Assembly: GCA_031082125.1 (NCBI GenBank)
Contig: JAVHLM010000004.1
Coordinates: 62,001-126,000, forward strand
Origin: Candidatus Eremiobacterota bacterium
GTDB lineage: Bacteria > Vulcanimicrobiota > CADAWZ01 > Ess09-12
Direction of reading: 5' to 3'
DNA: 64,000 nucleotides
Position 1 is the first letter of the stretch. Every line of letters begins with the position of its first letter. Below, piece after piece: positions 3,035 through 7,014 of this stretch. Both the position numbers and the translations under genes were made by a program. The notes under the pieces are model-generated. The model was given only the letters and a program-made list of their open reading frames with translations. It was not told the DNA's origin and made no database searches.

Positions 3035-3050
3035 TACCGAGGGATTGAGC

Positions 3051-5027
3051 ATGCCTATGCCATCATCGCAGGAATATGTTGAAGAAGCCGCCGGGACCGC
3101 TCCGGAGCCTGATTATTCTTACAGGTTCAAGCCTTTCCAGGAGATGACCCCTGAAGATTACCGGCTGGTGGGCTTCAAGTCGGGGCTTGAGGTGCACCAG
3201 CAGCTCCTTACGGGGAAAAAGCTTTTCTGCCGCTGCCCCGCAGGGCAGTACAGCGATCACTATGACGCCGAGATAATGCGCCACATGCGCCCTACCCTCT
3301 CGGAGCTCGGTGAATACGACGGCACGGCCCTGATGGAGTTCAAGACCAGGAAGGAGATCATCTACCACATCAACAGGGACACGGTATGCACCTATGAGAT
3401 GGACGACACGCCTCCCTTTGAGCTGAACGAGGAGGCTCTCGAGATTGCCCTCAGCATCGGGCTTCTTTACGGGTGCTCAATGGTTGACGAGATCCATATC
3501 GCCCGGAAGCAGTATCTCGACGGGAGCATTCCCACGGGATTCCAGCGCACGACCATAGTGGGCGTAAATGGCCGGATCCCTTACAAGGGTCGCACGATTG
3601 GCGTCGTGCAGCTCGGCCTCGAGGAGGATGCCTGCCGCGAGGTAGCCGACGTGGGCCACCGCCGCTATTACCTCACAGATCGCCTGGGCATGCCCCTCAT
3701 CGAGACGGTGACGGCTGCCGAGATGATAACGCCCCAGGAGGTCGCCGAAGTGGGGGAGATCATAAGGCGTCTTGCGCGCAGTACCGGAAAAGTGCGGACC
3801 GGCATCGGCGCCGCGAGGCAGGACGTCAACGTGAGCGTGACGGGCGGCACGCGCGTCGAGATCAAGGGAGTCTCCCGGATCCCTTACATCCCCCTTCTCA
3901 CTTATAACGAGGCCATGCGCCAGTGGAACCTGCTGGGTCTCAGGGAGGAGCTCAGGAAGCGAGGCATCACGCCTGATACCTTCCGGTCCAGGACCGAAGA
4001 CCTTTCAAGGATACTCCGGAAGACGCGCTATGAGCCCATCCACAATGCAATCAGCGGGGGAAAGGTGGTAAAGTGCGTCACTCTCTATGGATTCGGGGGC
4101 CTTCTCAGGTGGCAGACGCAGACAGACACCTATTTCTCCCGGGAGATCTCCGACAGGGTGAGAGTGGTGGCATGCCTGACGACCCTTCCCAATATCATCC
4201 ATTCCGACGCCCTTGCAGAGACCCTCTCGACGGCCGAGTGGCGGAACGTGAAGAAGGCTGCCGGCGCCGGCGAAGATGACACGGTGGTCCTTGTGTGGGG
4301 GGACGTGGCTGATGCTGAGACCGGGGCAAAGGAGATCGCCATCAGGGCCCATGAAGCCGCCACAGGCATTCCCTCGGAGACCCGCCAGGCCCTGAGCGAC
4401 GGCACCAACGGATTTGAGCGCATTCTCCCGGGCCCTGACAGGATGTACCCCGACACGGACCTTCCCCCGAAGCGGATAAAGGGTGAGCGCCTCGAGGGGA
4501 TAAGGGCTACCCTGCCGCCGCCCTTCTGGGAGCGCGAGGAGTGGTACCGCAGCCTGGGGATTCCCGCTGATGTCATAAGGCCCCTGGCTATATCGCCCTA
4601 TGCCGGCCTCTTCGAGAGGCTCGTCAGGGAGAAGAGGATAAACCCCACCGCCGCTGCCGTGGCGCTGATCCAGTACCCCAAGCGCCTCAGGAAAAAAGGC
4701 TTTCCCGCCGTCACCATAGACGGATCAGTCATGGAGCTCATACTTGACGCCTGCAGCCGCGGCATCATCCCCCGGGAGGGCATCTACCGCTCCCTTGAGC
4801 ATTATACCCGCGAGGGGAGGCTCGAGATACCGCTGCGCTGCACCGAGGACGACATGGCGGCGGCTGTGAGGGCCGCTTTTGATGATACCCGCGAGATGAA
4901 ATTCACCGCGCCGGAAAAGAGGTTCAGGATCATCATGGGCATCGTGATGAGGAAAATAAGCGGCTCGATAGAGGGGAGAAGGGTGGCGGACTTTGTAAGG
5001 CAGCTTTTCCCGGAGGTAAAGCCATGA
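3051..5027 (+). CDS. gatE: Archaeal-type Glu-tRNA(Gln) amidotransferase subunit E
   Basis: The 658-residue product is GatE, the tRNA-dependent kinase/amidotransferase subunit that activates Glu on misacylated Glu-tRNA(Gln) and accepts ammonia from GatD. The N-terminal GatB-like core is clear (GFKSGLEVHQQL, KLFCRCP, and QDVNVSV with R-x-EIKG following), and the length of about 650 residues with an AspRS-like insertion fits GatE rather than GatB (about 480). The C-terminal YqeY-like tail domain is present. The ATG at 3051 has a GAGGG site 7 bases upstream; an in-frame TTG lies at 3045. It overlaps gatD by 4 bases (ATGA). GatDE is established as the archaeal route; finding it in a bacterial context is unusual. 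Confidence 0.93.
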   Translation: MPMPSSQEYVEEAAGTAPEPDYSYRFKPFQEMTPEDYRLVGFKSGLEVHQQLLTGKKLFCRCPAGQYSDHYDAEIMRHMRPTLSELGEYDGTALMEFKTRKEIIYHINRDTVCTYEMDDTPPFELNEEALEIALSIGLLYGCSMVDEIHIARKQYLDGSIPTGFQRTTIVGVNGRIPYKGRTIGVVQLGLEEDACREVADVGHRRYYLTDRLGMPLIETVTAAEMITPQEVAEVGEIIRRLARSTGKVRTGIGAARQDVNVSVTGGTRVEIKGVSRIPYIPLLTYNEAMRQWNLLGLREELRKRGITPDTFRSRTEDLSRILRKTRYEPIHNAISGGKVVKCVTLYGFGGLLRWQTQTDTYFSREISDRVRVVACLTTLPNIIHSDALAETLSTAEWRNVKKAAGAGEDDTVVLVWGDVADAETGAKEIAIRAHEAATGIPSETRQALSDGTNGFERILPGPDRMYPDTDLPPKRIKGERLEGIRATLPPPFWEREEWYRSLGIPADVIRPLAISPYAGLFERLVREKRINPTAAAVALIQYPKRLRKKGFPAVTIDGSVMELILDACSRGIIPREGIYRSLEHYTREGRLEIPLRCTEDDMAAAVRAAFDDTREMKFTAPEKRFRIIMGIVMRKISGSIEGRRVADFVRQLFPEVKP

Positions 5028-6412
5028 CGAGCAGCGAGAATTACAAAGGATACAGGGGAGAGGCCCTGGCTGCCCTCAGGAATTTCAAGGCCGAAGTCTG
5101 GAGCGATGTCGTCGTGAAGACAGCCCGTGGCTCCTTCACGGGCATCATTCTCCCGCGCTCCGAGACGGCCGATCCCTACCATATCGTGATGAAGCTCCGC
5201 ACGGGCTACAACATTGGCATAGCGGCGTCCAGCATCGAAGCCGTGGAGATAGCCGGGAGAAAGGAAGCCCACTATAAAATCCCGGAAAAGGACTTTCCCT
5301 TTGACCCCCACAAGCCCAAGGTGAAGCTCCTGGGCACAGGGGGCACCATCGCGAGCCGCCTCGACTACCGCACCGGGGCAGTAATCCCCGCCTTTTCCCC
5401 GGGAGAGCTTTACGGCTCCGTTCCTGAGCTCGCCGACATCTGCAACCTCGAGACCGAGAAGCTCTACGGCGTCTTCAGCGAGAACATGGGGCCCGAGCAG
5501 TGGATAGGGACGGCAGAGGCCATCGGCAGGGAGATTGCCAGGGGCGTCCATGGCATTGTCATAGGCCACGGCACCGACACAATGCACCACACGGCGGCAA
5601 TCCTCTCCTTCATGGTCCAGGAGTCGCCGGTGCCCATCGTAATGGTGGGCTCGCAGCGCTCAAGCGACAGGCCCTCGTCTGACGCCGCTCTCAACCTCAT
5701 GCACAGCGTGAAGGCGGCCGCCGAGAGCGACATCGCCGAGGTCCTCGTGTGCATGTTCGGCCCCACTTCCGATGAGTATGGCCTTCTCCACAGGGGCACA
5801 AGGGTGAGGAAGATGCACTCGAGCTACCGCTCCACCTTCCGCACCATAGGCGATATCCCCATCGCCATGGTGAGCCGCGACACGATTACGCCCCTCAGGC
5901 AGGACTATGCAAAGAGACGCCACGACAGGCATGTGCGCATCAACACGGCCTTTGAAGAAAAGGTGAGCATCGTCTATTATTACCCCAACATGAAGCCCGA
6001 CATCATCGACTCCCTCATCGACAACGGCTACCGCGGCATCGTCATCGCGGGGACAGGCCTGGGCCACGTGAACAAGCCCCTCTATCCCGCCCTGAAGCGC
6101 GCCCAGGAGAAGGGCCTGGCCGTCTACATGACGGTGCAGACCCTCTGGGGGTACGTGCAGATGTATGTCTATGACACGGGCCGCGATATGATGGAGCTGG
6201 GTGTGGTTCCCATGGCCAACATGCTCCCCGAGGTGGCCTACGTGAAGCTCGGCTGGGCCCTGGGGCAGACGGGCGATCTCCAGGAGGTAAAGGAGATCAT
6301 GTACAGGCCTGTAGCCGGCGAGATAACGGAGCGCGAGCCCAGCAACGGCTACCTGATCCTGCAGGGCGGCATCCCCGAGGTTGAGGAGTACATCTCAAGG
6401 TACAGGAAATAG
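5024..6412 (+). CDS. gatD: Archaeal-type Glu-tRNA(Gln) amidotransferase subunit D (asparaginase-like)
   Basis: The 462-residue product is GatD, the glutaminase subunit that hydrolyses Gln to supply ammonia to GatE. It has an N-terminal SH3-like barrel (about residues 20-80, GSFTGIILPRSE) and an L-asparaginase-type catalytic domain with both catalytic threonine motifs: LLGTGGTIAS (about 105-114) and GHGTDTMHHT (about 183-192). A bacterial type I asparaginase would lack the N-terminal barrel and be about 330 residues. The ATGA overlap with gatE indicates translational coupling and 1:1 synthesis. Confidence 0.93.
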   Translation: MTSSENYKGYRGEALAALRNFKAEVWSDVVVKTARGSFTGIILPRSETADPYHIVMKLRTGYNIGIAASSIEAVEIAGRKEAHYKIPEKDFPFDPHKPKVKLLGTGGTIASRLDYRTGAVIPAFSPGELYGSVPELADICNLETEKLYGVFSENMGPEQWIGTAEAIGREIARGVHGIVIGHGTDTMHHTAAILSFMVQESPVPIVMVGSQRSSDRPSSDAALNLMHSVKAAAESDIAEVLVCMFGPTSDEYGLLHRGTRVRKMHSSYRSTFRTIGDIPIAMVSRDTITPLRQDYAKRRHDRHVRINTAFEEKVSIVYYYPNMKPDIIDSLIDNGYRGIVIAGTGLGHVNKPLYPALKRAQEKGLAVYMTVQTLWGYVQMYVYDTGRDMMELGVVPMANMLPEVAYVKLGWALGQTGDLQEVKEIMYRPVAGEITEREPSNGYLILQGGIPEVEEYISRYRK

Positions 6413-6414
6413 CG

Positions 6415-7014
6415 ATGAAGCTCATCTGCGTGGGAGGCGCCCAAAGCGGCGCAGGGAAAACCGTTGTCATCGAGTACCTTCTCAGGAGGCTCCCGGGCTT
6501 TTTGGCACTGAAGGTGACACCCTTTCACGATCACGGCATCGGGCACTGTCCCAGGCAAAATCCCTGCGGCGCCTGCGAGCCTTCCGTGGAGGGGTACGAG
6601 ATAATTGATGATGAAGAGCGCCTTTCCACTGATGGAAAAGATACGGCCCGGATGAAAGCGGCAGGGGCTTCCAGAGCTCTCTGGCTCAGGGCGTCGCCTG
6701 AAGGGCTGAAAGGCGGCCTGGATGAAGCCCTCGGGAGTCTCGCCCCCTGTGAGGGTGTAGTGATAGAGGGGAACAGGCCCCTCGTGGCTCTTCCTCACGC
6801 GTCAAAGCTTTTCGTGGTGAGCCGCTCCCTCGACCTGATAAAGCCCCGGGCCCTTGATGCCTTCCAGGCAGCTCACCTCATCGTGGTGACAGAGGGGATG
6901 AGCGAGAAAGTGCCGGGGAAAGTCACGGTCCCTTTTCCCCCTGCACCCGGTGACGGTGAAAACAGCTTTATCGCTGCGGTGCTGAAGGCGGCCCTCGAGA
7001 ACCCGTCACCATGA
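6415..7014 (+). CDS. P-loop NTPase, MobB-like
   Basis: The 199-residue product starts with a Walker A motif GGAQSGAGKT (residues 7-16) and continues in a MobB-like fold, with VVIEGNRPL as a probable Walker B-like strand. A CPRQNPCGAC cysteine cluster follows the first helix (about residues 43-52) and could hold metal. MobB proteins bind GTP in molybdopterin-guanine dinucleotide synthesis; this is the nearest family I recognise, but other SIMIBI metal-insertion GTPases are possible. It begins 2 bases after the gatD stop codon, so it is probably in the same operon. An XdhC homologue at 30.2-31.0 kb would fit molybdenum-cofactor use, but no molybdoenzyme is in view. Confidence 0.55.
   Translation: MKLICVGGAQSGAGKTVVIEYLLRRLPGFLALKVTPFHDHGIGHCPRQNPCGACEPSVEGYEIIDDEERLSTDGKDTARMKAAGASRALWLRASPEGLKGGLDEALGSLAPCEGVVIEGNRPLVALPHASKLFVVSRSLDLIKPRALDAFQAAHLIVVTEGMSEKVPGKVTVPFPPAPGDGENSFIAAVLKAALENPSP

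Follow-up and report, generated by a model that had tools for sequence, protein, structure and literature searches.

The window analysed here, a 64,000-nucleotide stretch of DNA from a Candidatus Eremiobacterota bacterium (C4:62001-126000 of assembly G000), carries at 3051-6412 an intact gatE-gatD pair, specifying both subunits of the Glu-tRNA(Gln) amidotransferase GatDE. Its GatE falls in a clade for which we coined the name type 2 and which is made up mainly of bacterial sequences; judging from sequence, type-2 GatDE is a real but overlooked bacterial system, and a strongly conserved one. It probably acts as a Glu-tRNA(Gln) amidotransferase. A few genomes would depend on it entirely for Gln-tRNA(Gln); in most, the host of the window included, it would give a second or corrective route next to glutaminyl-tRNA synthetase (GlnRS). 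The features of the locus are:

3051-5027, + strand: gatE, Glu-tRNA(Gln) amidotransferase subunit E (NCBIfam equivalog matches; PDB 1zq1_C/2d6f_C; fold match, E 2.6e-46)
3504-3548, + strand: type-2 signature RKQYLDGSIPTGFQR, GatE residues 154-168, in the catalytic domain (Q156, Y157, I162 and P163 fixed in 76 type-2 rows)
4038-4313, + strand: predicted GAD insertion, resembling aspartyl-tRNA synthetase (AspRS), GatE residues 332-423 (PF02938, 19.8 bits, sub-threshold; AspRS entries in the fold search)
4482-5009, + strand: all-helical C-terminal region with YqeY-like tail, GatE residues 480-655 (full-length PRK04028 match; helices of the model; weak match to the YqeY entry 8xjg)
5024-6412, + strand: gatD, asparaginase-like glutaminase subunit (NCBIfam equivalog matches; PDB 2d6f_A/1zq1_A)
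5093-5248, + strand: GatD_N (SH3-like) domain, GatD residues 24-75 (Pfam PF18195, 47 bits)
5318-6301, + strand: asparaginase/glutaminase domains, GatD residues 99-426 (Pfam Asparaginase N and C; T108, T184, D185 and K263 intact)

Both frames are intact. gatE begins with an ATG at 3051 and specifies 658 amino acids (an in-frame TTG at 3045 would give 660), gatD specifies 462, and an ATGA overlap joins the end of the one to the start of the other. A Shine-Dalgarno-like stretch precedes each gene. Seventeen bases separate the upstream stop codon from the gatE ATG, and two separate the gatD stop from the start of the next frame. GatE matched NCBIfam PRK04028 over its full length (513 bits, cut-off 456; model positions 4-624 of 630) and TIGR00134 (450 bits, cut-off 319.6), while GatD matched PRK04183 (516 bits, cut-off 310) and TIGR02153 (510 bits, cut-off 324); matches of this strength are far beyond chance. 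By sequence the closest PDB chains are 1zq1_C and 2d6f_C for GatE and 2d6f_A and 1zq1_A for GatD. On the family scores we rejected a mis-annotated GatB or a plain asparaginase: GatB models score the window GatE below cut-off (117 bits against 338, and 97.6 against 314.8), and the type I asparaginase model TIGR00519 gives the GatD core 390 bits, less than the GatD models do. For GatE the separation from GatB in the tree, at 100/100, excludes the former as well. A preliminary description of this DNA, made from its letters, had recognised a gatE-gatD pair in a bacterial genome, and the equivalog scores, the uniform composition and an asparaginyl-tRNA synthetase (AsnRS) gene on the same contig bear it out. 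A position inside the GatB clade, which that description had named as fatal to its proposal, was not found for GatE; for GatD the comparison with asparaginases was one of family scores.

The domain layout is likewise as had been described, with an AspRS-like insertion in GatE and an SH3-like domain preceding the asparaginase domains in GatD. Pfam identified GatB_N in GatE (E 1e-44), and the GAD insertion scored 19.8 bits against a cut-off of 23.4. An AlphaFold model of GatE was built from 35 window and locus sequences, with a predicted local distance difference test (pLDDT) of 84.8 and a predicted template modelling score (pTM) of 0.83. In a fold search its best match was 1zq1_C (E 2.6e-46, 506 columns), followed by GatB entries and then by AspRS entries. 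The last agree with an AspRS-like insertion, which the model thus leads us to accept despite the sub-threshold Pfam score. A YqeY entry was weakly matched (E 0.046); the YqeY-like tail is the tRNA-binding part of GatE in solved GatDE. The TGGT, HGTD and RKMH motifs of GatD are unchanged in all 83 rows aligned, and residues T108, T184, D185 and K263 are those that, from what is known of asparaginases, we take to be catalytic. The invariant residues of GatE are also kept in the window copy.

A GatE tree rooted on GatB resolved a canonical archaeal clade (Pyrococcus, Methanothermobacter and most Thermoplasmatota; support 100/97) and, as its sister, type 2 (97/95), containing bacterial sequences and those of a few Thermoplasmatota. 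The window GatE falls in type 2, outside the canonical archaeal clade, the archaeal sampling being limited to Thermoplasmatota and two solved structures. In an 85-row GatE tree it adjoins L097 in a 27-row group of Ignavibacteria, Aminicenantes and Bacteroidota (100), which sits inside a larger bacterial group (97). The GatD tree splits the same two sets at 100; several of its archaeal branches are very long. Because archaeal sampling is narrow and the type-2 clade was chosen by likeness to the window, the status of type 2 as an ancient sister is provisional; as far as the trees go, the window copy is in a bacterial clade and not near canonical archaeal GatE, and this placement is independent of that caveat. 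The trees with archaeal references that the preliminary description had called for uphold GatE over GatB, and they put the window copy outside the canonical archaeal set.

Twenty positions, many of them at residues 81-171 in the catalytic domain, are fixed or nearly fixed for differing residues in the two GatE types. The signature reads RKQYLDGSIPTGFQR in type 2 and RKIVIDGSNTSGFQR in canonical archaeal GatE (for example, RKQYLDGSIP against RKIVIDGSNT), and GatB has RKNY...P; Y157 and P163 of type-2 GatE are GatB-like.

To find relatives, we aligned the window GatE with two archaeal ones and ran this alignment against genomes sampled at one per GTDB species; the best 80 loci were listed. All but one (a Thermoplasmata archaeon) are bacterial or in assemblies titled bacterial. 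These loci span at least 17 NCBI-named bacterial phyla or candidate divisions, among them Ignavibacteriota, Bacteroidota, Chlorobiota, Planctomycetota, Acidobacteriota, Calditrichota, Krumholzibacteriota, Fermentibacterota, Aminicenantota, Cloacimonadota, Fidelibacterota, Latescibacterota, Zixiibacteriota, Elusimicrobiota and Myxococcota, and three (L099, L140 and L145) lie on single chromosome records. Among those listed, GatE is 48-73% identical to the window copy (median 60%; the 73% match is a fragment) and GatD has a median identity of 81%, reaching 85.5% (86% in the trimmed tree alignment); the best matches, from Ignavibacteriota, Aminicenantes, Planctomycetota and others, show 60-67% for GatE and 73-86% for GatD. 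The two solved archaeal GatE proteins are 36-39% identical to the window, and typical archaeal GatD 35-44%. Across phyla, GatD is far better conserved than its partner at all type-2 loci. Of the 68 loci with both genes, 61 have gatD directly 3' of gatE and on its strand, counted with the longest open frames as uncurated gene starts. No archaeal GatE was found in the viral contigs searched, and plasmid and phage collections gave no type-2 match; what they did contain was a single GatE fragment, archaeal (Natrinema), and gatB of the ordinary kind. Four phage-labelled records (OR846597, OR847198, OR850377 and OR845001) have gatB-like matches with 26% identity to the window GatE, and are probably host chromosome DNA rather than phage.

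Reviews from 2021-2022 consider GatDE exclusive to archaea and a signature of that domain, in line with the preliminary description, and connect this with the lack of GlnRS in archaea and with last-common-ancestor models (PMC9499178, PMC8762117, PMC8007984). We found no literature report of bacterial GatDE, although most subscription papers were out of reach and an earlier report is possible; automatic annotation pipelines may already be naming such genes gatD and gatE. The archaea-only premise is contradicted by a clade of GatDE that spans many phyla of bacteria, in most cases in genomes that also have GlnRS, and the supposed incompatibility of GatDE with GlnRS and the idea of co-evolution with tRNA(Gln) become directly testable in bacteria. 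It is puzzling that some genomes, that of the host included, carry GlnRS, GatCAB and GatDE together.

The host assembly comprises 7.43 Mb in 69 contigs and is 97.6% complete, with 2.2% estimated contamination. A search for gatA, gatB, gatC, GlnRS and AsnRS, as recommended in the preliminary description, found them all: gatC-gatA-gatB on contig C3, separate from gatDE; full-length GlnRS at C42:8507-10084 (775 bits, cut-off 425.8); and full-length AsnRS on the gatDE contig itself (C4:269446-270699, 488.5 bits). To the question raised there, whether GatCAB was absent or kept only for Asn-tRNA, the answer is that GatCAB is present and, with AsnRS also encoded, is on paper unneeded for Asn; with GatCAB, GlnRS and AsnRS all present, GatDE is on paper unneeded too. 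The single gene for glutamyl-tRNA synthetase (GluRS) is on C42, in tandem with GlnRS on one strand (C42:8507-11716, L053). The same tandem was seen in G001 and G003, of the same order as the host, as well as in G168 and G172 of the Aminicenantes. The host GluRS apparently has Arg at the position of Arg358 of the Thermus thermophilus enzyme, where the alignment is weak; we take this site to bear on the distinction between discriminating and non-discriminating GluRS.

Contig C4 is longer than 270 kb, and its uniform composition and AsnRS gene mark it as bacterial. The GC content at third codon positions is 0.77 in gatE and 0.84 in gatD, close to the 0.63-0.78 of the neighbouring genes, gatD being slightly richer. 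GatE exceeds the cut-off in only one of 149 genomes of the phylum, that of the window; four order-mates (G001-G004) gave no match of GatE or GatB type, unlike most of the phylum, whereas the window genome has both. As the window copy is nested among bacterial sequences and is the only one in these genomes, its most likely origin is lateral transfer from another bacterium. Of the horizontal transfer suggested earlier, the transfer itself is therefore likely, and a direct archaeal source is not.

Among 51 type-2 genomes full-length GlnRS was found in 39 and AsnRS over cut-off in 44. By our own reading, which counts matches above 58 bits if the frame differs in size from GatE, true GatB is present in about 20, GlnRS with GatB in about 15 and GlnRS without GatB in about 24. 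Six genomes lack any GlnRS-like or GluRS match, probably through incomplete assembly in that part. Two, G183 (L149, Fidelibacterota) and G190 (L158), possess GluRS but neither GlnRS nor GatB; in G183 GluRS is encoded twice, once near a tRNA-Gln gene. A truncated GlnRS in G178 (L140) could not be called a pseudogene, since it abuts an N-masked gap. Four genomes of Thermoplasmatota (G199, G225, G256 and G296) have type-2 GatE only. Archaea lack GlnRS (PMC9499178), which is our basis for the Thermoplasmatota, whose genomes were read for GatE type, and type 2 can accordingly replace the canonical enzyme in a GlnRS-free domain. Both GatE types occur in G240 and G249 (L375-L378).

In four loci (L144, L155, L160 and L164; Planctomycetota, Latescibacterota, Krumholzibacteriota and one unclassified) the gene immediately upstream of gatE is glnA, for glutamine synthetase I (the L164 copy matches TIGR00653 at 501 bits). 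Directly downstream of gatE in the archaeon L173 come first tRNA-Gln(CUG), which has A1-U72, and next glnA. Apart from gatD, conserved neighbours of gatDE are confined to these glnA and tRNA-Gln cases and to small lineage-specific sets, such as phoH2 (PIN-PhoH) upstream of gatE in five Ignavibacteriota/Bacteroidota loci (L108, L113, L116, L119 and L121); tRNA genes near gatDE follow no general pattern. In L329, L330 and L331 (G195, G191 and G189) a GluRS gene precedes tRNA-Gln(CUG) and tRNA-Glu(CUC), a possible unit for the mischarging of tRNA(Gln).

Close type-2 pairs, those of Aminicenantes included, have ratios of nonsynonymous to synonymous substitution rates (dN/dS) of 0.10-0.27 for gatE and 0.03-0.12 for gatD. 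These values rest on relatives, as the window copy has no close sister. The genomes of L102, L106 and L112 carry both GlnRS and AsnRS, and low dN/dS in such genomes indicates that type-2 GatDE is maintained where it is seemingly redundant.

From these data we infer an activity, a substrate and a physiological role. GatD would hydrolyse glutamine (or asparagine) and hand the ammonia to GatE, which would use ATP to activate the Glu side-chain carboxylate on tRNA(Gln) and would then amidate it to Gln-tRNA(Gln). A small number of bacteria and Thermoplasmatota apparently have no other way to Gln-tRNA; in the majority of carriers, the host included, GatDE may rescue Glu-tRNA(Gln) formed by a relaxed GluRS, beside direct charging by GlnRS. 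In favour of an amidotransferase we count the scores over cut-off, the catalytic residues kept, the fold match, the genomes with type 2 only, the linkage to glnA and tRNA-Gln, and dN/dS. Several observations weigh on the other side. With GlnRS in 39 of 51, most carriers should not need GatDE, and the incompleteness of metagenome-assembled genomes (MAGs) weakens the cases of an only route. The host has a single GluRS, which may or may not mischarge tRNA(Gln). Archaeal GatDE recognises A1-U72 and the D-loop of tRNA(Gln) (PMC9499178), but the one host tRNA-Gln gene read (C23:14973-15043) has U1-A72 and G73, and nearly all bacterial tRNA-Gln inspected have U1-A72, with G73 where the end is clear. 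A changed specificity is conceivable given the roughly 20 fixed substitutions, several of which fall in the catalytic domain, and the presence of both GatE types in two archaeal genomes hints at roles that are not identical.

The main rival is that type-2 GatDE has shifted to another aminoacyl-tRNA, to a tRNA-linked metabolite or to a glutamine-responsive glutaminase role. Such a shift would explain its persistence beside GlnRS and GatCAB (GatB in about 20 of the 51 carriers), and the type-specific residues, the two Thermoplasmatota genomes with both types and the strong purifying selection despite seeming redundancy are all in keeping with it. Against it, none of the catalytic motifs has been lost and the tRNA-binding tail is kept, some archaea show no GatE but type 2, no other Gln-tRNA route is visible in G183, and the association with glnA and tRNA-Gln points to glutamine and tRNA(Gln); on balance we think the shift unlikely. 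Somewhat easier to entertain, though still tentative, is that type 2 is an ancient sister lineage to archaeal GatDE, largely bacterial and with a tRNA or substrate specificity of its own (U1-A72 tRNA(Gln), for example, or a substrate other than Glu-tRNA(Gln)), selected beside GlnRS and GatCAB. GatDE would then be no archaeal signature, and could predate the split between bacteria and archaea.

It is improbable that the window pair is a recent neutral passenger without function in the host. Its solitary occurrence in the phylum and the presence of GlnRS, AsnRS and GatCAB would suit a passenger, but both frames are intact, the overlap is that of a coupled operon and the composition is host-like, while relatives are under purifying selection and GatD is still 85-86% identical to that of distant bacterial relatives. 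Direct transfer of canonical archaeal GatDE, as first proposed, is very hard to credit: the family models are named archaeal and the nearest solved structures are archaeal, but the identity to bacterial homologs is far higher and the tree nests the window among bacteria. Contamination or a chimeric contig, which the 69-contig assembly, its estimated contamination and the uniqueness of the pair in the phylum might suggest, is equally remote given the length, AsnRS gene and uniform composition of the contig, the tight spacing to both flanking frames, and the recurrence of type-2 GatE in at least 79 further assemblies of bacteria, in three of them on a single chromosome record.

Archaeal GatDE, as solved from Pyrococcus abyssi (1zq1) and Methanothermobacter thermautotrophicus (2d6f), has the same two subunits, domain order, catalytic motifs, GAD insertion and fold as the putative amidotransferase of the window. 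It differs in its separate sister clade and the substitutions described, and, unlike that canonical system, the window pair resides in a host with GlnRS and U1-A72/G73 tRNA(Gln). The nearest counterparts, in MAGs of Ignavibacteriota, Aminicenantes and Bacteroidota (L095, L096, L097 and L102; 66-67% for GatE, 83-86% for GatD), share the gatE-gatD order and signature residues; their flanking genes differ, and some such genomes lack GlnRS or GatB, whereas the host has both. GatB of bacterial GatCAB and GatE have the catalytic GatB_N domain and a YqeY-like tail in common, but GatDE has no GatA or GatC, its glutaminase being the asparaginase-type GatD, and the host gatCAB operon is separate. GatD shares its catalytic core with type I L-asparaginase, to which it adds GatD_N and the overlap with gatE. 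A known parallel for the redundancy may be seen in Bdellovibrio, Deinococcus and Thermus, where GatCAB is kept beside AsnRS and GlnRS (PMC4206432), though there it serves Asn synthesis.

Directly 3' of gatD, and not seen near gatDE at other loci, is a frame of 199 amino acids (6415-7014, + strand) with a weak, below-cut-off MobB-like match (21 bits).

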